The notes: generated by a model not told the origin, from the letters alone. 64,000 nucleotides of DNA from Acidobacteriota bacterium (GCA_009861545.1 VXME01000115.1:1-64000), one strand, 5' to 3'; positions 3,811 to 64,000 are shown, counted from the first letter of the stretch. Translations and numbers: made by a program.

Positions 3811-4112
3811 ACCCGCGTCCAGGGAATCGCGTTGAGGCGGGCGGGCGCAATCGGTTCGCCGCAGTCGCGGCAGACGCCGTAGATTCCCTGATCGATGCGC
3901 AGCAACGCCTCTTCTATCGCCTTCAGGATCTTGGCGTCGGTCTGCTTCAGCTTGAGCTGGATGTGGACCTCGTTGTTGCCGCTGGCCTGGTCGGCCATGT
4001 CACCCTGGCGGGTGTTATTGTCCATCGGCGTCGAGAACGACTTGGCGCCGCGCTCGGCGATGATCTCCTTACGCTTCCTTATCAACGCGTCCTTGTAGAC
4101 GGCCTCTTCCAT
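3780..4112 (-). CDS. DksA/TraR-type zinc-finger protein
   Basis: A 110-residue protein with a helical N-terminal half and a C-terminal four-cysteine zinc finger, C-R-D-C followed by C-I-T-C, preceded by the family motif RIDQGIYGVCRDCGEPI. Proteins of this type bind RNA polymerase through its secondary channel and tune the stringent response. The frame could begin further upstream at 4169, but the ATG at 4112 (MEEAVYKDALI) fits the family length and removes a basic N-terminal run. The coiled-coil tip in E. coli DksA carries two aspartates; I did not identify an equivalent pair with certainty, so the polymerase effect may differ. Confidence 0.85.
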   Translation of the reverse strand: MEEAVYKDALIRKRKEIIAERGAKSFSTPMDNNTRQGDMADQASGNNEVHIQLKLKQTDAKILKAIEEALLRIDQGIYGVCRDCGEPIAPARLNAIPWTRVCITCKAKQQ

Positions 4113-4196
4113 GACCCGGCTCCTCCTGTTTCGGCGGCTGGCCGGCAGCGTAATCAGGGAGTCTAGCACGCTTCGTTCGGCGCTCGCCGGGCCCGG

Positions 4197-6767
4197 CTAC
4201 TCGGTCCGCAGGGTCAGCAGCGGCTTGCGGCGCAGCACGTCCACGCTGGATGCGACGCCGACCACCAGAACGACGACGGCAGTCACCAGCATGCCGCCGA
4301 TGTTGATCGCCGGGGCCGGCGTCCACGGCACGTCGAGCACCTGTCGGGTGAGCGCCCAGGTCAGGGCGAGCGCGCCGATCGAGCCGACCAGGCCGGCCAG
4401 CGTCCCCAGCACGCCGTACTCGAACACGTACATCACGGCGATCAGGCGGGTGTTCGCGCCGAGCGTCTTGAACACCGCGGCGTCGAAGAGCCGCTGGAAC
4501 TTCGTCATCGCCACCGAGCCGACCAGGATCAGGCCGCCGGCCAGCAGAGCGATGGCTCCGACCACGCTGACGGCCAGCGTGACGTAGTCGAGCACCCGGC
4601 GGAACGTCCGGATGATCTCCAGGCCGTCGATGACCGAGACGTTCGGGTAGCTGTCCACGAGGTTCCGCTGAAGCGCACCGCGCGCAACGGGCCCCGCCGG
4701 CCCCCGCAAGAAGCTGATGTAGCTGTGCGGGGCGCCGTCGAACGTGCCGGGGCTGAACAGGAACATGAAGCCGCCGCTGCGCGAGTCGTCCCAGTCGACG
4801 GCGCGCACGCTCGTCACGCGCGCCTCGATCGCGCGGCCCAGCACGTCGAACCGGACCGTGTCGCCGAGCCGCATGCCCCGCTCCACCAAGCTGTCCTCGA
4901 TGGAGACCTCCGCCGGACCCGCGGCTGCGGCATCCCAGAACGCGCCGGCGACGATCCTCTCGTTCTCTTCCAGCCGCTCGCGGTAGGTCACGGTGTACTC
5001 GCGCCCGAATCCCGCGCGCCGTACCGCGCGGCGCCCCTCGATGGACGTGTCGGGGCCGGTCACGGCCGTCACCCGGGCGCGCAGCACCGGCAACAGGACC
5101 GGCCCTCCGCCCTCCCCCTCGCCGCCGACGCCGGCGTCCCGGAGAATGCGCGCCACCCCGTCCGCCTGGTCCTGCTGCACGTCGATGAGAAACATGTCGG
5201 GCATGTCGTCCCGCAGCTCGAGCGAGAACGACGCCAACAGGTTCGCCTGCACCGCGTGCACGCCGATGATGAAGAAGCTGCCCAGCCCCACCGCGAGAAG
5301 CACCACGCGTGTCTGGTTGCCCGGACGGCGCAGGTTAAGCGCGGCATGCCGCAGGGGGAACCAGCGCGCCGCCTCGAGTGGGCGCGTCATGCGGACCAGG
5401 GCCCGGCCGAGCAGATGCAGTGCTCCGGCGACGCCGATGAACCCGCCGGCCACGTACGCGCCGACCTCCAGGGAAGCGGCCTGCCAGGCCGCGACCCCGA
5501 CCAGCCCCAGGCCCACGAACACCGTGGCGGCCAGGCGCAGCGGGTCGCGGGGCGCCGCCGACGGCGCCTCCCCCTGCCGCAGCAGCAGCAGCGGCTTGGC
5601 GTGCCGGGTGTCGAGCAGCGGCACCAGGGCGAAGAGCAGCGAGACGAGCAGTCCCACCGCCAGCCCCTGCAGCATCGCCGAGAACGTCAGGTCGGTCGAG
5701 ACGATATCGAAGCCCGTCGTCGCCGCCGCCTGCGCCGCCAGGGAATCGGGCACGGACGCCAGCACCCCCCAGGCGACGCCGATACCGAGCAGCGCCCCGC
5801 CGAGTCCCAGCAGGGCGACCTGCACGACGTAGACGGCCAGCACGCCGGCCGCCGTGGCGCCCAGGCACTTCAGGATGGCCGCGCTGCGCAGCCGTTGCTG
5901 CACGAAGACCCGCGTCACGCTCCAGACGCCGATCCCGCCCAGGATGACGATGACGAAGCCGATCAGGCTGAGGTAGTTCTCGGCGCGCGAGAAGTTCCGC
6001 TCTATGCGGTTCTCGGTTCGCCGGTACGAGCCGATGCGGACGAACGCTTCCTGCAGGTCCTCGCGCAGTCCGCGTACCAGCGGCTCGATGGACGCTTCCT
6101 CCTGCACGCGCAGCAGGAGCTGCCGTTCGACGCGGCTCCCGAACTCGATCAGGCCGGTCTCGGCCAGCGCATCGTGCGCCACGAGCACGCGCGGCCCGAG
6201 GCTGAAACCGCCGAGCTGACGGCCCGGCTCGGTCACGATGGCGTCCCGAATCGTGAACGCCTCGTCGCCGATCAGGATCTCGTCGCCGACCGCGACGCCG
6301 AGCTGCGGCAACAGCTCCCGTCCCACGAGCGCGCCGCGGTCCCGAAGCAGGGCCGGCGAGTACGCGGTGCCGCTCTGCAGCGTGAAGCGGCCGTAGAAGG
6401 GGAAGGCCGTCTCGACGCCGCGCACCTCCACGATCTTCGTCCGCGTACCGGCCCCGGCCGGCAGTCGCGCCATCGTCACGGTGTCGACCGTCTCGGTGAG
6501 CTCGGTCCCCGCGACCTCCGCCGCGCGCGCCTCGATGCGGCCCATCACCTCGTCGGACCACGGCTGGTCCGTGCGGACATAGATGTCCCCGGCGGTCAGG
6601 CTCCGCGCCTCGGTGGCCAGCGCGGTGCGAACGTTCTGCACCAGCGAGCGGAGGGCAACGATGCCGCCGACCCCGATGGCGACGCAGCAGAAGAAGAAGA
6701 TCAACCGGCGCCAGGACGCCCGCAGCTCCCTGTACGCCATGCGCAGGACAAAGCTCATGGTCGGCAA
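4197..6767 (-). CDS. ABC transporter permease, YbbP-like (duplicated FtsX)
   Basis: An 856-residue permease with an N-terminal helix, a large periplasmic domain, two FtsX modules separated by a central membrane block, and a last FtsX module ending in the canonical KPLLTLRTE. This duplicated arrangement is that of YbbP, the permease annotated next to lysophospholipase L1. The ATPase gene ends 5 bases upstream and the esterase gene precedes that, so tesA-ybbA-ybbP appear to be one transcription unit. The cargo is unknown; the family is thought to handle lipid or hydrophobic substrates in the envelope. The start could be M1 or M4 (MSFVLRMAYREL). Confidence 0.9.
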   Translation of the reverse strand: MPTMSFVLRMAYRELRASWRRLIFFFCCVAIGVGGIVALRSLVQNVRTALATEARSLTAGDIYVRTDQPWSDEVMGRIEARAAEVAGTELTETVDTVTMARLPAGAGTRTKIVEVRGVETAFPFYGRFTLQSGTAYSPALLRDRGALVGRELLPQLGVAVGDEILIGDEAFTIRDAIVTEPGRQLGGFSLGPRVLVAHDALAETGLIEFGSRVERQLLLRVQEEASIEPLVRGLREDLQEAFVRIGSYRRTENRIERNFSRAENYLSLIGFVIVILGGIGVWSVTRVFVQQRLRSAAILKCLGATAAGVLAVYVVQVALLGLGGALLGIGVAWGVLASVPDSLAAQAAATTGFDIVSTDLTFSAMLQGLAVGLLVSLLFALVPLLDTRHAKPLLLLRQGEAPSAAPRDPLRLAATVFVGLGLVGVAAWQAASLEVGAYVAGGFIGVAGALHLLGRALVRMTRPLEAARWFPLRHAALNLRRPGNQTRVVLLAVGLGSFFIIGVHAVQANLLASFSLELRDDMPDMFLIDVQQDQADGVARILRDAGVGGEGEGGGPVLLPVLRARVTAVTGPDTSIEGRRAVRRAGFGREYTVTYRERLEENERIVAGAFWDAAAAGPAEVSIEDSLVERGMRLGDTVRFDVLGRAIEARVTSVRAVDWDDSRSGGFMFLFSPGTFDGAPHSYISFLRGPAGPVARGALQRNLVDSYPNVSVIDGLEIIRTFRRVLDYVTLAVSVVGAIALLAGGLILVGSVAMTKFQRLFDAAVFKTLGANTRLIAVMYVFEYGVLGTLAGLVGSIGALALTWALTRQVLDVPWTPAPAINIGGMLVTAVVVLVVGVASSVDVLRRKPLLTLRTE

Positions 6768-40840: not shown

Positions 40841-43800
40841 TCAAGGTGTCACACGTTCCAACCCCCGCAGGAACGCGTCGGGGGCGACGAACCGGGTGTG
40901 GAACTTGCTCCAGTCGTCCTTGTAGCGCTGGTAGACCGGGTCGTCCTCGAGGGTGGCCGAGGCATCCGGGTCGTACTCGGGGGTGTCGTGCGTCGGCAGC
41001 GGCCCGACAGTTTTGGAGTGCGCCGTGTTGAAGTCGCCGTCCTTGACCCAGCCGTCGGTGATCAGGACGAAGTCGCGGCGCCAGCCCGCGGGCGGGTCCG
41101 GCGGGGCCGCGAAGCGAAGCCGGAGCTCGTCGCCGGCGTTCATGATCACGTAGCGGTCCTCGACCTCGGCCAGCAGCTCGCGGACGTCGCCGAAGCGGGT
41201 GTGGTAGCCGACCAGGTCGCGCCACCGGGGCCGCAGGCTGGCCAGCTCGTAGCGCGGCAGTTCCAGACGGCGCGGACCGACGTACTCGGTCACGTTGTAG
41301 CCGCGGTAGTCGAGATCCGCGACGGCGGGCGTGAGGCGCCGCGTCGCCAGCGGAGCGTCGTCGCGCAGCGGCGCCCAGGCGATCCGGTCCCAGTAGATCT
41401 CCAGGTTCGTGCGCAGCCGCAGCCGTTGCGGATACCGCCCGTCGAACAGCCGCTCCACCGGAATGACCATCGTCTTGAGCTTGCCGGCCGGGAAGCCCAG
41501 GTCCTGGTGCATGACGGTCCAGTGCCCCTTGCCGTCGAGCGCCTCCACCGCCACGCCGCGCGGCGCCGGCAGGCTGCTCTGTCCGAGGGCGACGTTGATG
41601 CTGCTGTCGGTCGGGTAGATCCAACCGTAGGCCAGCAGCCGCAGCGCGGCGTGCGCCTCGGCGTCCGGGCCGAGCTCGACTTCGAGGAAGTGATCGCGGG
41701 TGATTCCCTGGTGGGTCCCCCGCTCGAACGTGGCGACGTAGCGTCCGTCGCGCTTGCCGACCAGGTCCCCGACGTCCTTGCCGGCATCGTCCCAGGCGCC
41801 GGCGATGGGTTGCGACGGGCCGGTGACGATGGGATCCAGCGGGGCCGCGTCGCGGGCGAAGCGCTCGTCGACGAAGACCTCCGTGTCCGCCGGGTGGTCG
41901 ACGACCAGCAGGGACGCGTGGTCGACGAAGTGGGTCTCCCAGAGCTCGGCGGTGATGCGCAGGTCGTACTCCCCGTCGCGCGGGGCGAGCTGATCGCCGC
42001 GGATCAGCACGCGATCCTCGGTCTGCGTGACGCCGGCGGTGTCCTGCGCGTTGATGCGCATCCCGAGCGGCGACCGCCAGAGCACGTCGGTGACGAAACG
42101 CAGGCCCGTACCGTCGTCGGCGAAGAGCCACGGGCAGGAGCCCTTGAGCCGCTGCTCGGCGACGAACTCGCCGCGCGCCGGCAGGTTGAAATCGGCCTGC
42201 ACGACGCCGTTGGGCCACGCCACGCGCGCCACGTCGATCCGCGGCTGCTCGCCCAGGCCGAAGTGGACCGGCCCCCCGGTCAGCACCTGCTTCTGCACGA
42301 GCAGTCCGGCGCGCGCCTCGATCTCGCCGCCGACCCCGAACGAGTTGATCCGCTGATCGCCCGCCGCAATGTGGGCCCGCGGGCGAATCCGTTGCCAGCC
42401 GTAGCCGGCGCTGCCCCGCCCCGCCAGCCGTACCGGCGCGCCGTCCTCCACCCCCACCAGGTCGAGCCAGCCGTCGGCGTCCAGATCGGCGACGCCGAAG
42501 ATCTCGGCCGTGACCGGCGCGTCGAGGTCGTCGTCCTGCAGCACCGCACGCTCGTCGGCCAGCCAGATCCGTGAGCCCGCCGGTCCCGAGCCGAGCAGGT
42601 CGAGCGCGCCGTTGTTGTCCAGGTCGGCCAACAGCAGCCGCCGGGATCCGGGAGCGGCGTCGGCCGGCACGGCGGACCACTCGGCGACGGGCTCGCGATC
42701 CCACGTCCCGTCGTTCCAGCTCGTGCGGCTGACCTGACCCGCCGCATCCAGGGTGACCACGTCGAGGACGCCGTCCGCGTTCAGGTCGCCCAGGGCCAGG
42801 GCGACGACCGGCCGCGACGCCTCCCACGCCGGCCACCCGCCGAACCGACCGGCCTGCAGGTTCTCCAGCGGATGCACGCCGCCCGCCGCGTCCAGCAGGA
42901 CCGCGTCCGGGTCGCCGTCGACGTCGAGATCGCCCCAGCCGAAACCGCGCAGGCCGGCCACGGCGGGGAACGGCCGCACCGCCTCGAACGTGCCGTCGGC
43001 GTTGTTGCGCAGCACCCACGGCGCCGCGTCCAGGGGGCCGTGAACGATGTCGAGATCGCCGTCCATCTCGATGTCGGCCGCCCAGGCGCCGTAGCCCGCG
43101 AGGCTCCCCATGTCGATGTCGTTCGCCGGCACGGGGGTGTTCTGTTCGAACTCACCGTCCTCGTTGCGGGTCAGAAGACCGAAGCCACTTGCGCCCACAA
43201 CGGCGAGATCCATGCGGTAGTCGCCGTTCCAGTCGAGAGGAAGAAGCGCCTCGGCAGCCGGCCCGGTCGCGGGCCCGCCGCCCGGAAAGGGGAGCTCCGG
43301 TCCCGCGTCGGCCCCGCCCACCCGGCGCACGGTCTCGCCGTCGGTGGCAACGATTGCCGGCGTCCCGTCCTCGCCGCCGTGGACTATGGCCAGCGCGGCC
43401 GCCTCGACAGTTCCCTGCGCTACCGGCTGGATTCGCTCCGCCACGTAGGCGAGCGTCCGATCCGGCGCCGCCGCGGTCGACGGGGGCGACGGCATCGCCA
43501 GAAAGCGCATCAGCGGCGCCGCGATCTGCTCTGCGCTGACGCTGACCACCGCCAGGTCCTCACGGAAAGCGGGCGTGCGGACCAGCACGTTGCGGAGCAA
43601 CTGGGCCATGGTCGCGGCCCGTCCCAGGTCGCCGCCGGCGGCGGCCTCGGACAGTCCCTGCAACTGCTCCATGGCCAGCTCGGGCCACGCCGCGCTGCGT
43701 TGCGTCAGGCGCTCTATCGTGTCGTCCAGGACGTCGCCGTCCTCCGTCCGGGCCGCCCACCGCGCCCGCTCCAGCAGCACGGCCAGGTTGTCGGGCCGGC

Positions 43801-44470
43801 GCGCCAGGACCTCTTCCAGCCACCGCCGCGCCTCGGGCAGGTCGGGTTCTGCCCCGCCCCGCTCCAGCTCCTGGGCCAGGGCGAAGCGGGCTTGCTCGTG
43901 ATCGGCGTCGAGCGCCGCCGCGCGCCGATACTGGGCGACCGCCTCCTCGGACCGCCCGCTGAAGCTGGCGAGCTGACCCTGCAGAAACGCCACCGCGGCA
44001 CTGTCCGGCGCCAGGGCGTACGCCGTCTCCAGCGCCGTCGTCGCCCCTCCGTCGTCTCCCACGCCGACCCGGGCCACGGCCAGGTTCGCGTGAATGGCCG
44101 GCTCGCGCGGGGCCAGCTCGCTCGCGCGGACGAACTGGTCGCGCGCGTCGCTCAGCAAACCGACCTCCAGCGATGCCAGCCCCCGGTAGAAGACGCGCAC
44201 CGTCTCCCGATACTCGGCCGAGCCGGCCGATGGAAGCCCCGCCGGCGCGCAGGCGAACCAGGAGCCCGCGCTCACGGCCACGACGATCGGCAACAGGAGC
44301 CTGCGGCGCAGAAGTCCCGCGCCGACGGAACGCCCAACGCGACAACGGGCAACATGGCCACCCCAAGGTCGCGTCACCGCCGCCAGCGCCAGTCGCCGCC
44401 ACCGGGCAGCCGCCGGTCCGCGCGAGCCGGGGGTCGAGCCGAAAGAACCTGATATTTGCACGTTCACCAC
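40841..44470 (-). CDS. Large TPR/FG-GAP lipoprotein with UnbV-like segment
   Basis: A 1209-residue protein. An N-terminal signal segment LLLPIVVAVSAGSWFACAPAG looks like a lipobox. TPR-type helices follow (residues ~75-300), then FG-GAP/VCBS repeats rich in DxDxDG (residues ~380-620, e.g. DLDVDGDPDAVLLD, DLNADGVLDVV, DLDNNGALDLLG, DLDADGWLDLVG), an ASPIC/UnbV-like stretch (GGEIEARAGLLVQKQ), and a C-terminal domain of over 500 residues that I do not recognise. The ~45 residues before the signal segment are likely not translated; a GTG at 44377 is an alternative start. It is surface-exposed or periplasmic and its calcium-binding repeats suggest a scaffold. Convergent or divergent neighbours do not link it to an operon. 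Confidence 0.8.
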   Translation of the reverse strand: MVNVQISGSFGSTPGSRGPAAARWRRLALAAVTRPWGGHVARCRVGRSVGAGLLRRRLLLPIVVAVSAGSWFACAPAGLPSAGSAEYRETVRVFYRGLASLEVGLLSDARDQFVRASELAPREPAIHANLAVARVGVGDDGGATTALETAYALAPDSAAVAFLQGQLASFSGRSEEAVAQYRRAAALDADHEQARFALAQELERGGAEPDLPEARRWLEEVLARRPDNLAVLLERARWAARTEDGDVLDDTIERLTQRSAAWPELAMEQLQGLSEAAAGGDLGRAATMAQLLRNVLVRTPAFREDLAVVSVSAEQIAAPLMRFLAMPSPPSTAAAPDRTLAYVAERIQPVAQGTVEAAALAIVHGGEDGTPAIVATDGETVRRVGGADAGPELPFPGGGPATGPAAEALLPLDWNGDYRMDLAVVGASGFGLLTRNEDGEFEQNTPVPANDIDMGSLAGYGAWAADIEMDGDLDIVHGPLDAAPWVLRNNADGTFEAVRPFPAVAGLRGFGWGDLDVDGDPDAVLLDAAGGVHPLENLQAGRFGGWPAWEASRPVVALALGDLNADGVLDVVTLDAAGQVSRTSWNDGTWDREPVAEWSAVPADAAPGSRRLLLADLDNNGALDLLGSGPAGSRIWLADERAVLQDDDLDAPVTAEIFGVADLDADGWLDLVGVEDGAPVRLAGRGSAGYGWQRIRPRAHIAAGDQRINSFGVGGEIEARAGLLVQKQVLTGGPVHFGLGEQPRIDVARVAWPNGVVQADFNLPARGEFVAEQRLKGSCPWLFADDGTGLRFVTDVLWRSPLGMRINAQDTAGVTQTEDRVLIRGDQLAPRDGEYDLRITAELWETHFVDHASLLVVDHPADTEVFVDERFARDAAPLDPIVTGPSQPIAGAWDDAGKDVGDLVGKRDGRYVATFERGTHQGITRDHFLEVELGPDAEAHAALRLLAYGWIYPTDSSINVALGQSSLPAPRGVAVEALDGKGHWTVMHQDLGFPAGKLKTMVIPVERLFDGRYPQRLRLRTNLEIYWDRIAWAPLRDDAPLATRRLTPAVADLDYRGYNVTEYVGPRRLELPRYELASLRPRWRDLVGYHTRFGDVRELLAEVEDRYVIMNAGDELRLRFAAPPDPPAGWRRDFVLITDGWVKDGDFNTAHSKTVGPLPTHDTPEYDPDASATLEDDPVYQRYKDDWSKFHTRFVAPDAFLRGLERVTP

Positions 44471-54564: not shown

Positions 54565-56928
54565 TCAGTACCGGAAGAGGTACGAGATCTTCATGAAGAT
54601 CGCGCGGTTGGTCCGCCGGTACCGCTGCGTGAGGAAGCGCACCGGGTCCAGCCGGTCCTCCTGCTGGTAGTGGCCGTCGTAGCCCACGTAGAACACCGTT
54701 CCGGAGTTGACGCGGTAGGTCAGCAGCAGGTTTCCGTCCAGTGTCCGGTCGAACGAGTTGTGCTCGAGGATGTTGCGCAGCAGCAGCCGCTCGGTGAACT
54801 GATAGGTTGTCAGCGCGCGCAGCACCTGGATGTCGAAGACCAGCGTGCTCGTCCGGGGATCCTCCAGGCGGCTCAGCTCGACGTTCAACTGCGATTGCAG
54901 GCGCGACACGGGCCGGAATATGGCGGTCAGGCTGCCGAGGCGGCCGCGGCCGAGAAACGGCATCCCGCCGTAGCGTATGGACTCTCCCCAGGAGACATTG
55001 CCGACCAGCGCGATCCGCCGGCTGGCGTTGATGTCGAAGTCGACGCCCTGGTTCCACTTCCAGAAGTCGATCCCGCCGTACCGCTCCAGCGCCCGCTCGG
55101 CGCTCAGACCCAGGCGCACGTTGCGCGCGAAGGTGAAATCGAGCCCGGGGCCGACGGTTTCATCCATCAGCACGTTGTCGAACGAGTAGTTCCGCCCGTA
55201 GCGCACCCGCGGCCCCCAGTTGACCAGCCAGTGCTCCGGCCACCAGCGGTAGGCCAGGTTGGTGAACATGCGCTTGTCGTCGACCCGCCGGACGAACCCG
55301 GTGTCGATGCGAAAGTCGGGACTGGTGCCGCCGTAGAAGGCGGAGAAGTTCACGTTCCGCCCCACGTGATTGAAGAAGGTCCCCATCGTCTGCCCGACGC
55401 GCTCGACCCCCTCCTCGTCACGGTGCCACGACTGCGACAGGAAGACGTTCCAGCGGTTGGTGGCGCCGAGCCGCATGTTGGAGTCGAACGCTGCCATCCG
55501 GCTGTAGCCGTCCATGAAGTCGCGGTTCGTGAACGTCGCGCCGACGAACGACTCCGGGTACAGGTCGAAGCGGGCGCGGCCGACGGCGACGTTGGCGGTC
55601 CTGCCGAACGCCGGGTCCGACGGGTCGTCGCGCTTGCCCGGCGCCTCGTCGTCGGCGAAAAGGACGCCGAGGGAGCTGCGGCCCACCTTGCCGCTCACCT
55701 TGCCCCCGTAACGCGGGTCGACGATGGTGCGGGTATGGATCGGCGTGATCGGCGCGAAGACGTTGAAGATCTCCTGCCCCTCCAGGAAGAACGGCCGCAG
55801 CTCGGGATAGAAGAGCGGGAAGCGCTGGTTGACGTCGATCTGCGGCAGGTCCGATTCGATCTGCGAGAAGTCGGGGTTGACGGTGAAGTCGGCGGTCAGA
55901 TCCGAGGAGATGCCGTACTTCACGTTGAGCCCGGCCTCGGCGACGTCGTCGTCGACGAACGCGCCGGCGGCATCGAGCGCGCCGAGGCGGAACGCGGTGA
56001 CCGTCGGCAGGATCTCCAGGTTGCGGCTGGTCGACAGGTCGGCCAGCCCCTCGATCACCCCCATCTGAGCGAGAAACTGCGCGATGTCCCGCGAAACCGG
56101 CGACCAGACGACGGTCTCGTCCTTCCCCTGAATCGCGCGCGAGACCTGGAACCCCCAGCGGTGCGTCTCCCCCTCGCCGACCGCCGGGTAGCGCAGGCTC
56201 TTGAAGGGGATCGCCAGCTCCGCGGTCCAGCCGTCCGCCGACGGCACGCCGGCCGAGACGAACAGGGCGTCCCACGAGATGTCCCCTTCCGGAATGCCGC
56301 TGGGGGGCGTGTCCGACGGCCCTCTTCCCTGCGACCCGAGGGCCCGCCGCTGCGTCCGGTTGCGCAGGCCGGTCGAGTTCAGGATGGCGTCCCCCTGCAC
56401 CCCGAAGCCGTTGACGGTGAACTGATAGGCGCGCTGCCGGTCACGGAACGGGTCGAAGAAGAGGGAGACCGTGTCGTCCTCGGCGATCTGATCCCGATCC
56501 GAGCGGTTCGCCCGCATCAGATCGGGGCTGGCGTATCCCGCGCGGATGCCGACGTAGAGGTTCTCGCCGTCGTAGGCGATGTACACGTCGGTCGGCTCGC
56601 TGGCGACGGCCCCTTCGACCGGCGCCGTCTGCACGAAGTCCGACAGGTGCGCGGCCCGGCGCCAGACGTCGTCGGTGAGTTGCCCGTCGATGATCGGGGG
56701 CTCCTCCACCCGGACCGCGGAAACGACCGGTTGCCCGGCGGCGTGCGCCGCGGCCCCGACCAGCAGCGCCAGCGCCAGGAGCCCGCGGTGAAACGCCGCG
56801 TGGTACCGAGAGGCATATTCGACCGGGGAGCAACGCCGTCCACGCGGGTTGCATCGCCGCTTGAATGCAGCGGGGCTTTCGCCACGGGCTCTCAGGGCGG
56901 TTCCGCCGGCCGTTCGCGATGCGATCAT
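54565..56928 (-). CDS. DUF5916 protein: CBM9-like domain plus outer-membrane barrel
   Basis: A 787-residue protein. After a signal segment (GLLALALLVGAAAHAAGQ) comes a CBM9-like domain (PPIIDGQLTDDVWRRAA, PTDVYIAYDGENLYVGIRA), then GFGVQGDAILNS and the DUF5916 stretch with FPLFYPELRPFFLEGQEIFN and SQIESDLPQIDVNQRFPLF, and an amphipathic beta region ending in Tyr (ISYLFRY) as in outer-membrane proteins. The ATG at 56928 overlaps the CRTAC1 stop (ATGA) but leaves a 45-residue leader before the signal segment, so the true start may be internal and non-ATG. It is the last gene of the cytochrome, CRTAC1 and DUF5916 unit. Confidence 0.88.
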   Translation of the reverse strand: MIASRTAGGTALRARGESPAAFKRRCNPRGRRCSPVEYASRYHAAFHRGLLALALLVGAAAHAAGQPVVSAVRVEEPPIIDGQLTDDVWRRAAHLSDFVQTAPVEGAVASEPTDVYIAYDGENLYVGIRAGYASPDLMRANRSDRDQIAEDDTVSLFFDPFRDRQRAYQFTVNGFGVQGDAILNSTGLRNRTQRRALGSQGRGPSDTPPSGIPEGDISWDALFVSAGVPSADGWTAELAIPFKSLRYPAVGEGETHRWGFQVSRAIQGKDETVVWSPVSRDIAQFLAQMGVIEGLADLSTSRNLEILPTVTAFRLGALDAAGAFVDDDVAEAGLNVKYGISSDLTADFTVNPDFSQIESDLPQIDVNQRFPLFYPELRPFFLEGQEIFNVFAPITPIHTRTIVDPRYGGKVSGKVGRSSLGVLFADDEAPGKRDDPSDPAFGRTANVAVGRARFDLYPESFVGATFTNRDFMDGYSRMAAFDSNMRLGATNRWNVFLSQSWHRDEEGVERVGQTMGTFFNHVGRNVNFSAFYGGTSPDFRIDTGFVRRVDDKRMFTNLAYRWWPEHWLVNWGPRVRYGRNYSFDNVLMDETVGPGLDFTFARNVRLGLSAERALERYGGIDFWKWNQGVDFDINASRRIALVGNVSWGESIRYGGMPFLGRGRLGSLTAIFRPVSRLQSQLNVELSRLEDPRTSTLVFDIQVLRALTTYQFTERLLLRNILEHNSFDRTLDGNLLLTYRVNSGTVFYVGYDGHYQQEDRLDPVRFLTQRYRRTNRAIFMKISYLFRY

Positions 56929-58715
56929 CGTTCGATCGGCGTCGCCGCGACGATCCCGGCGCCTTCCTCGATCGTGATCCGCTGGTTGGCTTCCAGCGGT
57001 CCGGTCTCGTCGACGCGCCCGCCCGGCCACGCCACCCGCACGGCCTCGACCTGCGTTGCGGCGCCCAACCCGAGGGACACCGGCAGCTCGCTCTGCGAGG
57101 CGTAGCTCGACCCGGTCCGCACCCGGCGCCAGCGCGTTCGGCCCCCGGTGGTCACCTCGACGCGCGCGCCCACGCCGTCGCGGTTCGCAGCCGTCCCGAC
57201 GAGCCGCACCCGCAGCACGTTTCCAGCCGCCGTGTCGTTGCGCAGCAGCCGCGGCGCCCCGCCGTTGGCGGTGATCACCACGTCGAGATCGCCGTCGCCG
57301 TCCGCGTCCGCGTAGGCCGCCCCGCGCCCGACGAGCGGCGCGTCGAACCCCTCGCCGGCTCCCGTCACTTCCTCGAAGCGGCCGCCGCCGAGGTTGCGGA
57401 ACAGTTGCGGGCGCTGCGCGTGACTCACCCGCGTCTGGACCCGGCCGACGTCGTCCGCCACATGGCCGTTCGCGGCGAGGATGTCCAGGCGGCCGTCGAG
57501 GTCGACGTCGAAGAAGAAGCAACCGAACGTCAGCGTCAGCAGCGTCGCCCGGCCGAGCGGCGAACGGGGCGCGTCGTCGATGAACAGCCCGTTGCCCTCG
57601 TTGTGGTACAGGGCCAGCATCTCGTTCGAGAAGTTGCCGATCACCAGGCCGGGCAGCCCCGAGTCGTCGTAGTCGGCGGCGTCGGCCCCCATGCCGGCCC
57701 GCGCCACCCCGGTCTCGCTGAAGGCCACCGCGGCAGTGACCGCAATGTCCTCGAACGTGCCGTCGCCCCGGTTGCGGAACAACTGGTTCGGCTGCGTGTC
57801 GTTGGCCACGAACAGGTCCATCCAACCGTCCGCGTCCGAATCGAACATCACCACGCCCAACGCCTTGGCCGACGGCGCCGCCACCCCCGCGGCCGCCGTC
57901 ACGTCCTCGAAGGTCCCGTCGCCCCGGTTGCGGTACAGCGTGGCGCTCTGCCCCGCGTACGACTCCGGGGTGCAGTAGGACTTGGTCTCGCCGTCGAGGG
58001 TGCAGAACAGGTCGGTCTCCGCCGTCCACTCGACGTAGTTCGCCACGAACAGGTCGAGGTGCCCGTCGCCGTCGTAGTCGAGCCAGAGAGCGCTGGTCGA
58101 GAACCCCGGATCGCCAACGCCGGCCGCGGCAGTAACGTCCGTGAACGTGCCGTCCCCGCTTCCTCTGTAGAGCCGATTGGGGCCGAGCGCGGCCAGGTAC
58201 AGGTCGACGTGCCCGTCGTTGTCGTAGTCGGCCGCGGCCCCGCCGATGCCGTAGATCGGGGAATCGAGTCCGGACCCGCGGGTGACGTCGGTGAAGGACC
58301 AGCCGCCGTCGTTGCGGTACAGCGCCGGCGGCGTGCCGTCGCCCCGTCCCGGCCAGTCGGTCGAATTGATCAGCAGCAGGTCCTGCCGCTCATCGCCGTC
58401 GGCATCCAGCCAGACGGCGCCCGCACCGAGCGTCTCCGGCAGGTACTTCTCGCCGAACGCCCCGGTGTTGTGGGTGAACCGGATGCCGGCCTCCGCGGTG
58501 ACGTCGGTGAAGACGATTGGTGCTACCCGCGCGTCGGCCGCGGTCTCGGCCCGCGGCGTGTCGGGTCCGGATGCGGCGTCGGGAGACTCTTCCCCGGCCG
58601 GCCCGCCGCAGCCAGCCGCGGCGGCCAGCACGATGGCGACGGCGCCGAACGCGGCGCGGAACACGGGGCGCGGCGGCAGCGTGCGAATCATCGTGCCGGG
58701 TCCGCTCGCTTCCAT
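56925..58715 (-). CDS. CRTAC1-type lipoprotein (FG-GAP repeats and ASPIC/UnbV domain)
   Basis: A 596-residue protein with a lipobox-like signal end AIVLAAAAGCGG (Cys at about residue 36), then FG-GAP repeats with calcium loops DADGDERQDLLLI, DYDNDGHVDLYLA, DYDGDGHLDLFVA, DSDADGWMDLFVA, DVDLDGRLDILA and DADGDGDLDVVI, and a C-terminal ASPIC/UnbV domain (GVGARVEVTTGG, SQSELPVSLGLG, VAWPGGRVDE). The start ATG shares one base with the stop of the cytochrome gene (TGATG). It is a homologue of the 45913-47766 protein, but here lipid-anchored and in a different operon. Confidence 0.88.
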   Translation of the reverse strand: MEASGPGTMIRTLPPRPVFRAAFGAVAIVLAAAAGCGGPAGEESPDAASGPDTPRAETAADARVAPIVFTDVTAEAGIRFTHNTGAFGEKYLPETLGAGAVWLDADGDERQDLLLINSTDWPGRGDGTPPALYRNDGGWSFTDVTRGSGLDSPIYGIGGAAADYDNDGHVDLYLAALGPNRLYRGSGDGTFTDVTAAAGVGDPGFSTSALWLDYDGDGHLDLFVANYVEWTAETDLFCTLDGETKSYCTPESYAGQSATLYRNRGDGTFEDVTAAAGVAAPSAKALGVVMFDSDADGWMDLFVANDTQPNQLFRNRGDGTFEDIAVTAAVAFSETGVARAGMGADAADYDDSGLPGLVIGNFSNEMLALYHNEGNGLFIDDAPRSPLGRATLLTLTFGCFFFDVDLDGRLDILAANGHVADDVGRVQTRVSHAQRPQLFRNLGGGRFEEVTGAGEGFDAPLVGRGAAYADADGDGDLDVVITANGGAPRLLRNDTAAGNVLRVRLVGTAANRDGVGARVEVTTGGRTRWRRVRTGSSYASQSELPVSLGLGAATQVEAVRVAWPGGRVDETGPLEANQRITIEEGAGIVAATPIER

Positions 58716-61561
58716 CAGTACGCCGGCCGGGCCGGCGCGCCGTGCTCGTGAATCGCCTGCCGCTCGTTGTTGTCCTCCGGCGAGGCGCGCCGGAAGGGAC
58801 CGGTGATGGCCTGGGCCGCCTCGTCCGCCTTGAAGCGCTCGTACAGCGCCCGCTCGCGGGCCGCCTCCTCGGGACGCCCCGCCCCCTGATGGCTCAGCAT
58901 CAGGTTGTAGTGCGCCTGCAGGTCCTCCGGATCGATGCGCAGCACCTCTTCGAGGACGGCAACCGCGTCGTCGAAGCGCCGTTCCAGGAAGTGGATGCGG
59001 CCGATCTGGTTCAGCACTACGCGGTCGCGCGGGTACTGCGCCCGCGCCGCCTCGAACTCGGCCAGCGCCTCGTCGTAGCGCCCCAGCGCGCGCAGTGCTG
59101 TACCGAGGAAATAGTGCGCGCGCGCAAGCCCGGGCGACAGTTCCAGCGCCCGTTCAAGCAGCGGAACGGCGGTCTCGACGTCGCCCTCCTGCAGGCGCGC
59201 GCGGGCCACGTTGACCGGTCCGTCCGGATACTCCGGCTCGATCTCCATCACCGTCCGGAAGGCCGCCTCCGCACCGCGCAGGTCGCCCTGCAACAGCAGA
59301 CCGATGCCGTAGTCGTTCCACCGCTCGCGCAGCGACGGCGCCTCGACGCGCGGGACCTCCGGCAGCGCGACGTCGGCTTCGATCACCTCGAGCGACGCCT
59401 CCGCCTCGGCCATCACCGTCGTCGGAATGTCCGGAATCGCCTTGATGCCTCCGGAAACGTCGCTGGTGTCGCCGGTGAAGCGCCACTCCGCGTCGTCGTA
59501 GTCGGCGGTCGCGGGCGCCGCCTTCGCATCGCGCACCCCGGCGAACGCCCACTGCGTGTTCCACCACGCGAACTTGCGGTAGTTGACCTTCGCCCGCAGG
59601 AAAATCCGGTCGCCGGCATCCTCCGGCACCCGCAGCCGGTAGTGGACGGTGTCGGCGGCGCCGGGCGGAATCAGACGGACATAGGCGACGGAACGGGTCA
59701 TCCAGGCGTTGCGCTTGTTGATCGGGTTGCCGTGCGCGTCGAGCTGCAGGCTGCGGTAGAAGTGGGCGCCGGGATCCACCGGCCCGCTGCCGCCGTCGGC
59801 CGCCGCGCCGCTGTGCAGCAGCACGCGCCCGGTGTCGTCGACGGCCTCGAACTCCACCCACACGTCGAAAGCGTCGACGGTGCCGCCGGGAAAGAAGTGC
59901 CCCACCTTGCGCGTCCGGACCACCACCTCCACCCGGACCGACTCGCCGCGGCGTACGGCGACCGGGGCCAGGTCGAGGGGCGCGATCACCTCGCCGGGCG
60001 TCGTCACCACGCCCCCGGCGCCGAAACGGGCCGACTCCTCGCCCACCGCGAACGTGCTCGCCAGCCGCGGCTCGGCGCTCCGCTCGTTCGCCGGTCCCGG
60101 CGGCGGGGTCTCGTCCGCCCGCGTGATTCCGAACACGTCCACCGAGATCTGCCCGTCCCGCAGGAAGTCCTGCACGATCCGCAACTGCTCGTCGTCGCCG
60201 TTGACGAACGGCAGCGCCGTGTTCGCCCCCGGGAAGCGGTGCGAACGCACGTAGCCGTCGCCGGCGGCCGGATCGTCCGACCGCACCAGCGGCATGTGGC
60301 AGTCGTTGCAGGTGAGCGGCCTCTCCGGGTAGTAGAACGAGCGGGCGCCCTGCCCCGACACCCCGGACGCCTGCCAGTTGTCGTACTCGTTGAAGCCGCG
60401 GATCCAGCGGTAGCCGTTCACCGGCACGTCCAGGTGCACCTTGTGGCAACTGGAGCAGAACTCGGCGCTGTCCTCGCGATGGAACGGTTTCAGAAAAGTG
60501 CGCCGGTGCGGCTCCGGGGCGAGCTCGGTGACCAGATCGTGCGCCCAGCGCAGCAACGGCGCCTCGCTGGCGGCCAGATCGTGCAGCGGCGGGTACTCGA
60601 CGATGAAGTCCCCCTGCCCCATCGTGCCCCCGACGTGCACGATCGAGTGGCAGGAGGTGCAGCCCAGCCCCGCCTGCGCTTCGGGCGTGTCGATCTGCTC
60701 GCGGATCGGCCGGTCGAAGCGGCCGTTGAAGAACACGGCGTGATCGTGGCAGCCGGCGCACCACTTCGACGGCCGCGTGCCCACCACGTCCTGCATGTAC
60801 TCGATGGAGCGCCGGTACCACTGGTTGTTGAAGGACGAGAAATGGTGCGCTGACGCGTTCCACTGCTCGTAGATGTCCTGGTGGCACCGCCCGCACGTCT
60901 CGCTGGTGAGAAAGAAGTCGGCGGGAATCACGTCGCCGGTGTTCGTGCGCGCGGACGAGGGAAAGAAGGGGCTGTCGGGTCCGTCTCCCTCGCCCTCCAT
61001 GGTCGCCGGCGGCCGCACCGGATTCACGATGCGGTGCGCGTCCCGCCAGCCGGCGTCCCACGTGGCGCGCAGGGCCGGCGTCATCAGCGCCGCCGCCGCC
61101 AGCGCCGCGATCCCGCCCCGGATCGCCCACACCGGCGCGGGCGCCGACACCGCCGTACGCCACGCATGCGCACCGACCAGGACCGCGCCCGCCCCTGACG
61201 CCGCCACGTGCAGATCGAGCAGCCACTCGTACGGTCGCGTCGCTCCCACCACGAGGACGGCGCAACCGAGCAACAACCCGACCCCGAGAAGACCGAGGCC
61301 CGCCGCCGGCAGTCGTCCGAGGGATCGCGCGCGGCGCATGACCCACACGAGGGTCAACGCCGCCAGGGCCAGACCGAGGAGGGGATGCGCCACGACGTTG
61401 GCGACGTACGCCAGGGAGGCGCTCGGCGCCGCCGCGAGCCACACCGAATTCAGGATCAGCAGGACGCCACCGGCGACCAGCGCGTTCGACAGGCTCGGCG
61501 GCAGCACCGGCCGCGGATGCCTGGCCTTCGCGTTGTCCGCCGATCCGATCTCTCCCGTCAA
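58715..61561 (-). CDS. Membrane-anchored five-heme cytochrome c with TPR tail
   Basis: A 948-residue protein. Four to five N-terminal helices (residues ~25-160) are followed by a cytochrome region with five CxxCH sites: Cys223-His227 (CGRCH), 268-272 (CAGCH), 301-305 (CTSCH), 369-373 (CSSCH) and 418-422 (CNDCH). A beta-rich module follows, then a TPR tail (residues ~740-900, e.g. GLARAHYFLGTALRALGRYDEALAEFEAARA). The TTG start at 61561 is preceded by GGGGGA. Cytochrome C554/NrfA-like folding is possible, judged from the heme spacing. The gene is coupled to a CRTAC1 lipoprotein and DUF5916 barrel, suggesting an electron or redox process across the envelope. Confidence 0.85.
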   Translation of the reverse strand: MTGEIGSADNAKARHPRPVLPPSLSNALVAGGVLLILNSVWLAAAPSASLAYVANVVAHPLLGLALAALTLVWVMRRARSLGRLPAAGLGLLGVGLLLGCAVLVVGATRPYEWLLDLHVAASGAGAVLVGAHAWRTAVSAPAPVWAIRGGIAALAAAALMTPALRATWDAGWRDAHRIVNPVRPPATMEGEGDGPDSPFFPSSARTNTGDVIPADFFLTSETCGRCHQDIYEQWNASAHHFSSFNNQWYRRSIEYMQDVVGTRPSKWCAGCHDHAVFFNGRFDRPIREQIDTPEAQAGLGCTSCHSIVHVGGTMGQGDFIVEYPPLHDLAASEAPLLRWAHDLVTELAPEPHRRTFLKPFHREDSAEFCSSCHKVHLDVPVNGYRWIRGFNEYDNWQASGVSGQGARSFYYPERPLTCNDCHMPLVRSDDPAAGDGYVRSHRFPGANTALPFVNGDDEQLRIVQDFLRDGQISVDVFGITRADETPPPGPANERSAEPRLASTFAVGEESARFGAGGVVTTPGEVIAPLDLAPVAVRRGESVRVEVVVRTRKVGHFFPGGTVDAFDVWVEFEAVDDTGRVLLHSGAAADGGSGPVDPGAHFYRSLQLDAHGNPINKRNAWMTRSVAYVRLIPPGAADTVHYRLRVPEDAGDRIFLRAKVNYRKFAWWNTQWAFAGVRDAKAAPATADYDDAEWRFTGDTSDVSGGIKAIPDIPTTVMAEAEASLEVIEADVALPEVPRVEAPSLRERWNDYGIGLLLQGDLRGAEAAFRTVMEIEPEYPDGPVNVARARLQEGDVETAVPLLERALELSPGLARAHYFLGTALRALGRYDEALAEFEAARAQYPRDRVVLNQIGRIHFLERRFDDAVAVLEEVLRIDPEDLQAHYNLMLSHQGAGRPEEAARERALYERFKADEAAQAITGPFRRASPEDNNERQAIHEHGAPARPAY

Positions 61562-61681
61562 GAGCAGTCCCCCGTGCTTCTATTGTAGCCGCGGGGACTC
61601 GGCCGCCCGGACCGTACGCACGCCCGAGAGCCCGCGGCAACCTCGAGCGCGGCTGCTAAGATGGATTCAGAGGGAGTCGTC

Positions 61682-63031
61682 ATGGCAGCAAGCACAATCA
61701 CCGAACGCCCCGTGCACCGGGTGGAGAACCTCGTTTCCGACGAGGATCAGCACATCCTCAACATGACGCCGGACGAGGCCCGCCGGCGCCTGCTGGCGGA
61801 CGACGCGGCCGGGGTGCTCGACATCCGAGGCTCGTTCGCGCTCGTGGCGCGCGACGGCGAGCGCGTCCGCCTGGCCCGCAGCCTCAGCCGGCCCCTGCGG
61901 TACTTTCTGGCCAAGGAAGCGGCTGGTCCGCTGCTCGTCGTTGCCGACCGCATCGACGCAATCCACCGCTTTCTGGCCGCCGAGGGCTACGCGAACCAGT
62001 TCCACCCGACCTACACGCGGATGGTCCCGGCGCACCACGTGACGGAGATCGCACTGGTCGGCTGCCCCGACCCGAACCCGCGCTACACGCGCTTCTTCAC
62101 CCCCGCGATGGCCACGCTGCCGGGGGATCTCGACCTCATCGGGCGGCGCTACGTTGAGGCCGCGCTGGCGGAGATTCACACCTGGCTCGACGCCGTTCCG
62201 CCGGAGGAACCGCTGGGGGTGCTGTTCTCCGGCGGTCTGGACAGCGGCGCGCTGCTGCTGTGCCTGCACGATGCGCTCCTGCAGCGGCAGGAATCGCCGG
62301 CGCGGCTCAAGGCGTTCACGCTGAGCGTGGCAGGCGGCGGCGCGGACGCCGCGCAGGCCCGCCGCTTCCTGCGCGAGACCGGCCTCGAGTTCCTCCTGGA
62401 GGAGATCGACGGGCCGGCAGACGGGCTGGACCCGAGAGACGCGGTGAGGGCCATCGAGGACTACAAGCCGCGGGATGTCGAGTGCGCCACCGTCGGGCTG
62501 GCGCTGCTGGCCGGGATCCGTGAGCGCTATCCGGCCTGGAGCTGGCTCTTCGACGGAGACGGCGGCGACGAGAACCTGAAGGACTACCCCATCGAGGAGA
62601 ACGCCGAGCTCACCATCCGCAGCGTCGTGTCCAACCGCATGCTGTACCAGGAGGGCTGGGGCGTGGATGCCATCAAGCACTCGCTGACCTACAGCGGAGG
62701 TCTCAGCCGCGGCTGCGTCCGCGGTCACGCGCCCGCCCGGCGGTACGGCTTCCGCCTGGTCAGCCCCTACACCGCGCCCAACGTAGTCGCCGTGGCCGAG
62801 GGCATCCCGTTCGACGCGATCAGCGGGGGCTCGCACGAGCGTCTGTACGCCCTGAAGGGCGAGGTGCTGAGCCGCGGCATCCGGCAGGTGCTGGGCCGGG
62901 AGCTGCCGGTCTTCGCGAAACGCCGCTTCCAGCACGGCGCGATGGAAAACGAGGCGTTCGATGCACTGTTCTCCGGCGACACGGAGCGTTACCGCGGCTA
63001 TTTCCTTGCGCAGTATGCGCCGCGCGCCTGA
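61682..63031 (+). CDS. Asparagine-synthase-like PP-loop protein
   Basis: A 449-residue protein with a C-terminal Asn-synthase-type ATP-pyrophosphatase: PP-loop LFSGGLDSG at residues 181-189, then FDGDGGDENLKDYP and GFRLVSPYTAPNVV. The N-terminal half is amidotransferase-like in outline (GSFALVARDGERVRLARS) but lacks the N-terminal Cys nucleophile, so it probably uses ammonia or another acceptor, or adenylates a carboxylate. I chose the ATG at 61682 since AGGGAG sits 5 bases upstream; an earlier ATG at 61661 is in frame. The stop overlaps the radical SAM gene, implying a common pathway. Confidence 0.8.
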   Translation: MAASTITERPVHRVENLVSDEDQHILNMTPDEARRRLLADDAAGVLDIRGSFALVARDGERVRLARSLSRPLRYFLAKEAAGPLLVVADRIDAIHRFLAAEGYANQFHPTYTRMVPAHHVTEIALVGCPDPNPRYTRFFTPAMATLPGDLDLIGRRYVEAALAEIHTWLDAVPPEEPLGVLFSGGLDSGALLLCLHDALLQRQESPARLKAFTLSVAGGGADAAQARRFLRETGLEFLLEEIDGPADGLDPRDAVRAIEDYKPRDVECATVGLALLAGIRERYPAWSWLFDGDGGDENLKDYPIEENAELTIRSVVSNRMLYQEGWGVDAIKHSLTYSGGLSRGCVRGHAPARRYGFRLVSPYTAPNVVAVAEGIPFDAISGGSHERLYALKGEVLSRGIRQVLGRELPVFAKRRFQHGAMENEAFDALFSGDTERYRGYFLAQYAPRA

Positions 63032-64000
63032 TTCGGCGCGGCGCGCGAACGACCGACGCACGACGGGAACGGGTCGCGATGCGGCCGCCGTGCCTGCTGC
63101 CGGCGGCAGTACGACCGACTGGATACGCTCGCGGCGGGGTCCGAAGATCGACACCGATCCGGCCCGGCCGATAGCGCATTTTCGGGAAGAGGAACGCCGG
63201 CTCGACGGCTCCCGCGCGGTCGTGCTGCACGTGCTGCTCGCAGGCGCCGAGTGCCCCTTCACCTGCATCTACTGCGACCTCTGGCGCCGGACCCTGGACG
63301 GACCGACGCCGCCCGGCGCCATTGCGCGGCAGTTGGAAATCTCCCTCCGCGAGACGGGGACGCTGCCGGCGACGTGCGGCGTCAAGCTCTACAACGCGAG
63401 CAATTTCTTCGACCCGCGCGCCGTGCCGCCGGGCGACGACGCATCCATCGCGGCCCTCCTGCAGCCGTTCGACCGCGTGACCGTCGAGTGCCACCCGCGG
63501 CTGGTCGGGCGGCGCTGCCTGGAGTTCGCGGATCGCATCCCCGGCCGGCTCGAGGTGGCGATAGGCCTGGAGACCGCCGATGCGGCGGCGCTGGCAAGGC
63601 TCAACAAGGGAATGACGCTCGACGACTTCGACTCTGCGGCGGCGCGCCTCACGAGCGCCGGCATCGGCCTGCGGACGTTCGTACTGCTGCCGGCGCCCTT
63701 CGTACCGGTGGCGCGGGCAGTCGAATCGGCCCTCGACGCGGTGCGCCACGCGGTCGACCGGGGCGCCCGGCACGTCACCCTGATTCCGAGCCGCGACGGC
63801 AACGGCGCCATGGACGAGCTCCGCGAGCAGGGGCTGTGGACGCCGCCGGGGCTGGACATGATCGAGGAGGTGACGGAAGGCTGCGCCCGTATCTCGGGCG
63901 CCGTGGTCACGGTGGACCTCTGGGACATCGACCGCTGCCTGCCGTGCCGGCCCTGCCGGCCCGCACACCTCGTCCGGCTGCGGCGTTTCAACCTCACGGG
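63015..64000 (+). CDS. Radical SAM protein, RaSEA-like, 3' end outside window
   Basis: The frame runs from an ATG at 63015 (17-base overlap with the previous gene) to the end of the window with no stop, at least 328 residues. The iron-sulfur motif is Cys80-x3-Cys84-x2-Cys87 in ECPFTCIYCDLWRRTL. Following segments match the archaeosine-synthase radical SAM partner (RaSEA/TIGR01210-like) in order: VKLYNASNFFDPRAVP, VTVECHPRLVG, LEVAIGLETADAAALARLNKG, LIPSRDGNGAMDELREQGLW. The Cys pair near the end (CLPCRPC) is an extra site. RaSEA makes archaeosine from a lysine-modified tRNA base in archaea. A start further in, near GTG 63090, would remove the Arg-rich leader. Confidence 0.8.
   Translation, partial: MRRAPDSARRANDRRTTGTGRDAAAVPAAGGSTTDWIRSRRGPKIDTDPARPIAHFREEERRLDGSRAVVLHVLLAGAECPFTCIYCDLWRRTLDGPTPPGAIARQLEISLRETGTLPATCGVKLYNASNFFDPRAVPPGDDASIAALLQPFDRVTVECHPRLVGRRCLEFADRIPGRLEVAIGLETADAAALARLNKGMTLDDFDSAAARLTSAGIGLRTFVLLPAPFVPVARAVESALDAVRHAVDRGARHVTLIPSRDGNGAMDELREQGLWTPPGLDMIEEVTEGCARISGAVVTVDLWDIDRCLPCRPCRPAHLVRLRRFNLT

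Follow-up and report, generated by a model that had tools for sequence, protein, structure and literature searches.

A three-gene set for an Asn-synthetase-like ligase, a RaSEA-like radical-SAM protein and a halogenase-like flavoenzyme recurs in at least five bacterial phyla

The last genes of the stretch of acidobacterial DNA analysed here (the window, bases 1-64000 of a 72,954-base contig), together with the gene just beyond it, form a previously undescribed three-enzyme set that is present in at least five bacterial phyla. The genes specify an asnB-like ligase (A), a radical-SAM protein (R) and a FAD-dependent flavoenzyme (F), and we refer to them as the trio, or A-R-F. No description of the trio was found in the open-access papers searched. 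We put at about even the chance that A-R-F constitutes an obligate three-enzyme pathway to a low-molecular-weight product, often coupled to a module of UnbV/UnbU-type proteins. The genes considered are as follows.

61682..63031, plus strand: gene 1 (A), Asn-synthetase-like/beta-lactam-synthetase-like PP-loop ligase (PF00733, alignment, model)
63015..64000 in the window, running to contig base 64049, plus strand: gene 2 (R), RaSEA-like radical-SAM protein (TIGR01210, Cys motifs)
Contig 64031-65617, plus strand: gene 3 (F), PltM/CtcP-like flavin-dependent halogenase-like protein (profile match, motifs)
40841..44470, minus strand: TPR/FG-GAP/UnbV protein, TPRUnbVc (profile match at 40886-42208, 503 bits)
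56925..58715, minus strand: FG-GAP/UnbV (ASPIC) protein, a generic paralogue (PF13517 and PF07593)
58715..61561, minus strand, divergent from the trio: multihaem-cytochrome-c554/TPR protein (PF13435)

The product of gene 1 (449 amino acids; an alternative start is the ATG at 61661) contains an Asn-synthase domain that scores 35.7 bits against Pfam PF00733, above the cut-off of 21, and retains both ATP motifs, SGGLDS and GDGGDEN. Across a 35-member alignment of the A family, SGG.DS and DGDGGDEN are invariant and no conserved N-terminal Cys was found. Comparison of an AlphaFold model of the protein (pLDDT 86) with known folds using VIA-align returned beta-lactam synthetase (1m1z, Z 25.8) and AsnB (1ct9, Z 24.6) as near ties. 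Because the model can be aligned only from about residue 10 onward, which corresponds to AsnB residue 39 onward, gene 1 lacks any equivalent of the AsnB stretch that bears the nucleophilic glutaminase Cys. Against the AsnB model TIGR01536 the protein scores 26 bits, with a cut-off of 267. A thus shares its fold, PP-loop and GDGGDE motifs with beta-lactam synthetase and AsnB, as well as with carbapenam synthetase and TsnB9, and, as in beta-lactam synthetase, a working glutaminase would not be expected; it differs from beta-lactam synthetase and AsnB in having an N-terminal domain shorter by ~30 residues and an identity of about 20%. An earlier note on this DNA had described gene 1 as a nucleophile-less Asn-synthase-type PP-loop protein, and the above-cut-off Pfam match, the motifs and the missing Cys-bearing N-terminus bear that description out. 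No relatives of A were found in a plasmid collection.

For gene 2 the top NCBIfam model is that of RaSEA (TIGR01210, E 1.7e-19), with a score of 70 bits against a curated equivalog cut-off of 212. All 35 R family members tested match this model (lowest E 1.2e-30), and a search of the window's genome for a match above the cut-off found none. The three Cys of the radical-SAM motif CxxxCxxC are invariant in 80 of 80 R relatives, and each of the four Cys of a C-terminal CxxC...CxxC is found in 70-72 of them. On its sequence, then, R is a relative of RaSEA that falls far below the RaSEA cut-off: the top model and CxxxCxxC uphold the earlier label of a RaSEA-like radical-SAM protein, but the score does not carry it into the RaSEA family proper. 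R is also distinguished from RaSEA by the additional C-terminal CxxC...CxxC and by being bacterial. RaSEA too works with an amino-acid-attaching partner, ArcS (PMC11298593), whereas the partner of R is an Asn-synthetase-like ligase. Searching the PDB with a profile of the R family gave no match. A fold search with the gene 2 model (pLDDT 91) assigns neither function nor substrate, because many radical-SAM families are near-tied (queuine lyase at 17.2, Elp3 at 16.9, BioB and HydE).

The ATG of gene 2 at 63015 gives a 17-base overlap with gene 1 (63015-63031), which had been read as fusion of the two genes in translation. When we compared gene 2 with two close relatives (L033 and L034), changes within codons 1-37 were distributed over codon positions 1/2/3 as 7/7/5 and 14/7/5, and those within codons 38-330 fell mostly at position 3. 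Codons 1-37 thus lack the third-position bias seen further on, and the model of this stretch is disordered (pLDDT below 50 for residues 1-25 and 27-30); the true start is therefore probably further downstream, at a GTG at about 63090, and the overlap is probably a start-site artefact. The overlap between genes 2 and 3 (64031-64049), on the other hand, looks sound, because conserved motifs fix both ends. Neither gene 1 nor gene 2 is a chance open reading frame, since both families are conserved across phyla.

Gene 3, just past the end of the window, encodes a 528-amino-acid flavoprotein. Among solved relatives, the F family profile matches PltM (E 2.5e-76) and the tetracycline 7-halogenase (E 5.4e-74) over most of its length. 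Invariant in the family is K84, which aligns with Lys87 of PltM, a catalytic residue whose substitution in the K87A mutant abolishes activity (PMC6424973). The WxWxIP motif, which reads GWLWVIPF in PltM, is altered in F, where it is mostly W-x-[YW]-x-L-[RP]-F and most commonly GW-x-Y-x-L-R-F. F therefore resembles PltM and CtcP in being matched along almost its whole length and in keeping the catalytic Lys, but differs from them in its changed WxWxIP motif and in having no PKS or phenol-making genes nearby. Halogenase activity would be plausible for F and, because this motif is altered, is not assured. We rejected an ordinary halogenase cluster, as PKS/NRPS or carrier neighbours are absent.

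The three genes are strictly inherited together. In a survey of 80 loci from GTDB genomes, the order asnB-like, rSAM, FAD was constant wherever all three were present, and trio-bearing loci came from Acidobacteriota, Gemmatimonadota, Planctomycetota, Bacteroidota (Dyadobacter luticola) and Myxococcota, the last represented by one record titled Deltaproteobacteria that a tree tool placed under Myxococcota. Among 297 Acidobacteriota genomes, R and A occur in the identical 30 (hypergeometric p 8e-42, shared ancestry ignored), and F occurs in 28 of those 30 and in none of the rest. Even among ten genomes picked mainly for scattered or incomplete-looking genes, where the genes are seemingly unlinked or incomplete, A was found in all ten (two of them partial matches) and F in nine (one of them weak). 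The earlier suggestion of a possible new pathway is strengthened by the order conserved across phyla and by this co-occurrence. In a tree of A, the window's lineage groups, with support, with three Gemmatimonadota sequences, which suggests, but does not prove, transfer between phyla.

Several loci depart from the complete arrangement. Two genomes, G098 (L173) and G176 (L029 and L172), keep A and R and have no F match at E 1e-20, while the relative G055 has F in place. Three Planctomycetes (L102, L103 and L105) carry R without the other two genes, next to two unrelated genes that are themselves conserved as a pair, and have A and a flavoenzyme elsewhere in the genome.

Analysis of the genes that neighbour the trio revealed a module made up of TPRUnbVc, UnbV and an RnfD-like membrane protein, UnbU, of the NQR2/RnfD family (PF03116). 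TPRUnbVc is a TPR/FG-GAP protein that combines an UnbV region with a conserved C-terminal domain of ~450 amino acids, which has one invariant Cys and many invariant Trp; the copy in the window (an ORF of 1209 amino acids, 57% identity by tblastn) lies about 17 kb from the trio. As UnbV is common in these genomes (4-12 matches per genome in seven genomes), a lone UnbV neighbour means little, and we counted as evidence only operon-type UnbV/UnbU and TPRUnbVc. Of the 20 Gemmatimonadota loci in the GTDB set whose flanks are long enough, 11 have TPRUnbVc next to the trio, as does a single locus each from Planctomycetota, Bacteroidota and Acidobacteriota. The named strain Dyadobacter luticola T17 has TPRUnbVc as well as the whole trio. 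In the Acidobacteriota stretches L148-L154, Unb-module genes are found no more than a few kilobases from the trio, and co-directional six-gene runs of trio plus module, in two gene orders, are found in L082, L090, L152 and L154. TPRUnbVc is present in all 30 trio genomes versus 101 of 297 overall (p 3e-16, phylogeny ignored), leaving 71 Acidobacteriota genomes that have it without the trio; it was not found in the plasmid collection. Operon-type UnbU occurs in 13 Acidobacteriota genomes, eight of which carry the trio (p 4e-6, phylogeny ignored), and is missing from the other 22 trio genomes. UnbU is thus linked to the trio but optional, and the link to the Unb module is not obligatory, because UnbU is found in only eight of the 30 trio genomes and has no match at E 1e-12 in the window's own genome.

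The other two window genes listed above have a less certain place. The protein encoded at 56925..58715 scores 48 bits against enediyne UnbV, compared with 151-175 for operon-type UnbV; it is not an operon-type UnbV, and whether it belongs with the trio is uncertain. Equally uncertain is the membership of the protein encoded at 58715..61561, whose family is also found near the trio in L033, L046, L050, L082 and L095. More broadly, bases 40841-62000 of the window and 9684-12835 of L002 (a stretch of the window's contig in which 4031-5617 corresponds to contig 64031-65617) hold many FG-GAP/UnbV, TPR and cytochrome-c genes, and the contig holds four of the genome's 12 UnbV_ASPIC matches.

UnbV and UnbU are known to accompany enediyne biosynthesis. 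The enediyne PKS cassette has the form E3/E4/E5/E/E10 (PMC5181780), and a row of genes on an S. clavuligerus plasmid (DUF1702, a VCBS protein, 'enediyne biosynthesis protein UnbU', a type I PKS and a thioesterase) fits it; going by gene order, UnbV would be E4 and UnbU E5. Operon-type UnbV scores 151-175 bits against the UnbV beside the S. clavuligerus enediyne-type PKS (~530 amino acids, 27-30% identity), versus 92 bits or less for the other, generic UnbV proteins of the window and its relatives. BLAST puts operon UnbU at least as near to ordinary RnfD as to enediyne UnbU. As in the enediyne cassette, UnbV followed by UnbU, adjacent and often overlapping, occurs near the trio in several loci, and the pair is absent there in the window's genome; unlike in that cassette, the pair goes with A-R-F and the TPR/UnbVc protein rather than with an enediyne PKS, and neither the recurrent neighbours of the 80 loci nor the window's cluster included a PKS. 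A role for UnbV/UnbU was not found described in the open-access papers searched.

Plasmids provided two further points of comparison. On a Serratia proteamaculans plasmid (NZ_MT039191.1, L174 10362-16056), genes for DUF1702, a VCBS (UnbV-like) protein, an RnfD (UnbU-like) protein and an L-histidine N(alpha)-methyltransferase share a locus with ketosynthases, a carrier protein and a glycosyltransferase, placing an UnbV/UnbU pair in a biosynthetic setting. Plasmid pFRL3 of Streptomyces sp. FR1 (NC_023283.1, L158 10001-10780) encodes a RaSEA-like radical-SAM protein (172 bits, cut-off 212) among P450, SHMT, glycosyltransferase and carbamoyltransferase genes, in what appears to be a natural-product locus, and a similar protein is plasmid-encoded in Streptomyces sp. 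F8. The pFRL3 protein is 30% identical to the product of gene 2, but it is closer to RaSEA and no A or F partner is annotated beside it.

The gene content, conservation of the set, co-occurrence, Unb linkage and active-site motifs are observed directly; in the scheme that follows, each chemical step, substrate and product is inferred, as is what the Unb module does. A would adenylate a carboxylate and join it to an amine, as beta-lactam synthetase does, without a glutaminase of its own. R would then use 5'-deoxyadenosyl-radical chemistry on the amide or amino-acid portion so formed, possibly C-N cleavage if the analogy with RaSEA holds, and F would halogenate or oxidise the product, which in many lineages may be coupled to the TPR/FG-GAP protein and the UnbV/UnbU-type pair. 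Several lines of evidence support such a small-molecule pathway: the exact co-occurrence and conserved order of the genes, the fold of A, the PltM-like F with its catalytic Lys, the Unb linkage in four phyla (Gemmatimonadota, Planctomycetota, Bacteroidota and Acidobacteriota), the presence of TPRUnbVc in every trio genome of the Acidobacteriota set, the enediyne-like UnbV and the pFRL3 natural-product locus. Most specialised-metabolite clusters contain a transporter, a regulator, a carrier protein or a PKS/NRPS; none of these is conserved beside the trio, which counts against a small-molecule pathway, as do the optional UnbU, the common UnbV, the RnfD-like character of UnbU and the altered WxWxIP motif. 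We propose tentatively, at slightly less than even chances, that the trio represents a new biosynthetic class: a ligase/radical-SAM pathway that includes a halogenase, uses neither PKS nor NRPS, and occurs among mostly uncultured bacteria of at least five phyla. Its product would work through, or be handled by, an UnbV/UnbU envelope module of the kind that goes with enediynes.

The strongest rival explanation is that the trio modifies an exported protein before its export, with the TPR/FG-GAP/UnbVc protein or UnbV as the likeliest target. It holds this place because TPRUnbVc is present in all trio-bearing Acidobacteriota tested, and the gene adjoins the trio in several phyla. Quinone-cofactor maturation uses a radical-SAM and flavoprotein pair, and F does weakly match the maturation flavoproteins QhpG (1.6e-7), LodB and GoxB, but small-molecule halogenases are by far its nearest solved relatives. 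The invariant Cys and many invariant Trp of the TPRUnbVc C-terminal domain also count for this reading, and a ligase resembling lasso cyclases or beta-lactam synthetase could use a peptide; yet the 71 genomes with TPRUnbVc and no trio, its distance from the trio in many genomes, the tight gene boundaries and the lack of any conserved small precursor gene in our survey of conserved families all argue the other way, and we consider protein modification unlikely. A RiPP with its own precursor peptide was rejected, as the family survey, whose systematic scope stopped short of very short ORFs, showed no conserved small gene.

Alternatively, instead of a secreted metabolite the product might be a dedicated redox or metal-binding cofactor for an envelope electron-transfer system in which UnbU, UnbV and TPR/cytochrome proteins take part. 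The kinship of UnbU with NQR2/RnfD proteins, the multihaem cytochrome/TPR genes that flank the trio in the window and some relatives, the absence of conserved export genes, and the maintenance of the three-gene order across phyla with A at 52-68% identity would all suit such a cofactor. However, operon-type UnbU is missing from most trio genomes, several genomes have UnbU and TPRUnbVc but no trio, and the sporadic spread of the trio (30 of 297 genomes) is unlike that of a core cofactor. We regard an envelope cofactor as improbable.

The earlier note had raised, as one possibility, base modification by amidination of a deazapurine-type compound, which we considered as an archaeosine-like change to a 7-deazapurine in tRNA or DNA. 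In its favour, R is a relative of RaSEA, the R model is similar to Elp3 and to further radical-SAM enzymes that modify RNA, TGT is present in 18 of 18 genomes tested, and the window's own genome (G000) has QueC. QueC is needed to make preQ0, yet it is missing (at E 1e-10) from 15 of the 30 trio genomes versus 19 of the 267 other Acidobacteriota genomes (p 1.6e-8, not corrected for phylogeny and owed mainly to one clade). Since half of the carriers lack QueC, the trio does not require self-made preQ0, and a pathway with that requirement is excluded for half of the trio genomes; the presence of TGT in all 18 genomes tested makes queuine salvage possible in trio hosts. The shortfall of R from the RaSEA cut-off (70 versus 212 bits) and a halogenase-like third enzyme also speak against deazapurine chemistry, and the only recurrent cross-phylum neighbours are Unb-type genes. 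Beside the trio in the window we found no queuosine, TGT or ArcS genes; past base 64000, where the earlier note had advised looking for queuosine-type genes, there are none, and the halogenase-like flavoenzyme and TPR/cytochrome-type genes lie there instead. TGT lies ~10 kb from the trio in one acidobacterial clade only, inside a conserved housekeeping block, and we rejected this linkage as a functional sign because it is not seen in other phyla and the clade also conserves several of the neighbouring gene families. A tRNA-type archaeosine-like product is unlikely, and we give the amidination of a deazapurine in tRNA or DNA very little credence; the natural-product half of the earlier proposal survives.

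The clade in question is QueC-less and TGT-positive, with tgt about 10-13 kb from the trio, which suggests salvage of queuine or preQ1 there. It comprises G089, G108, G117, G126, G135, G160, G168, G184, G214, G222 and G270 (family f49, genus g84), together with G152.

The chemistry of Acidobacteriota, Gemmatimonadota and Planctomycetota is little known. If the small-molecule pathway that we favour is correct, the trio would provide a compact three-gene marker for an uncharacterised metabolite or cofactor in soil and marine members of these phyla, with one named strain, Dyadobacter luticola T17, among its carriers. It would also allow the function of UnbV and UnbU to be studied where no PKS is present.
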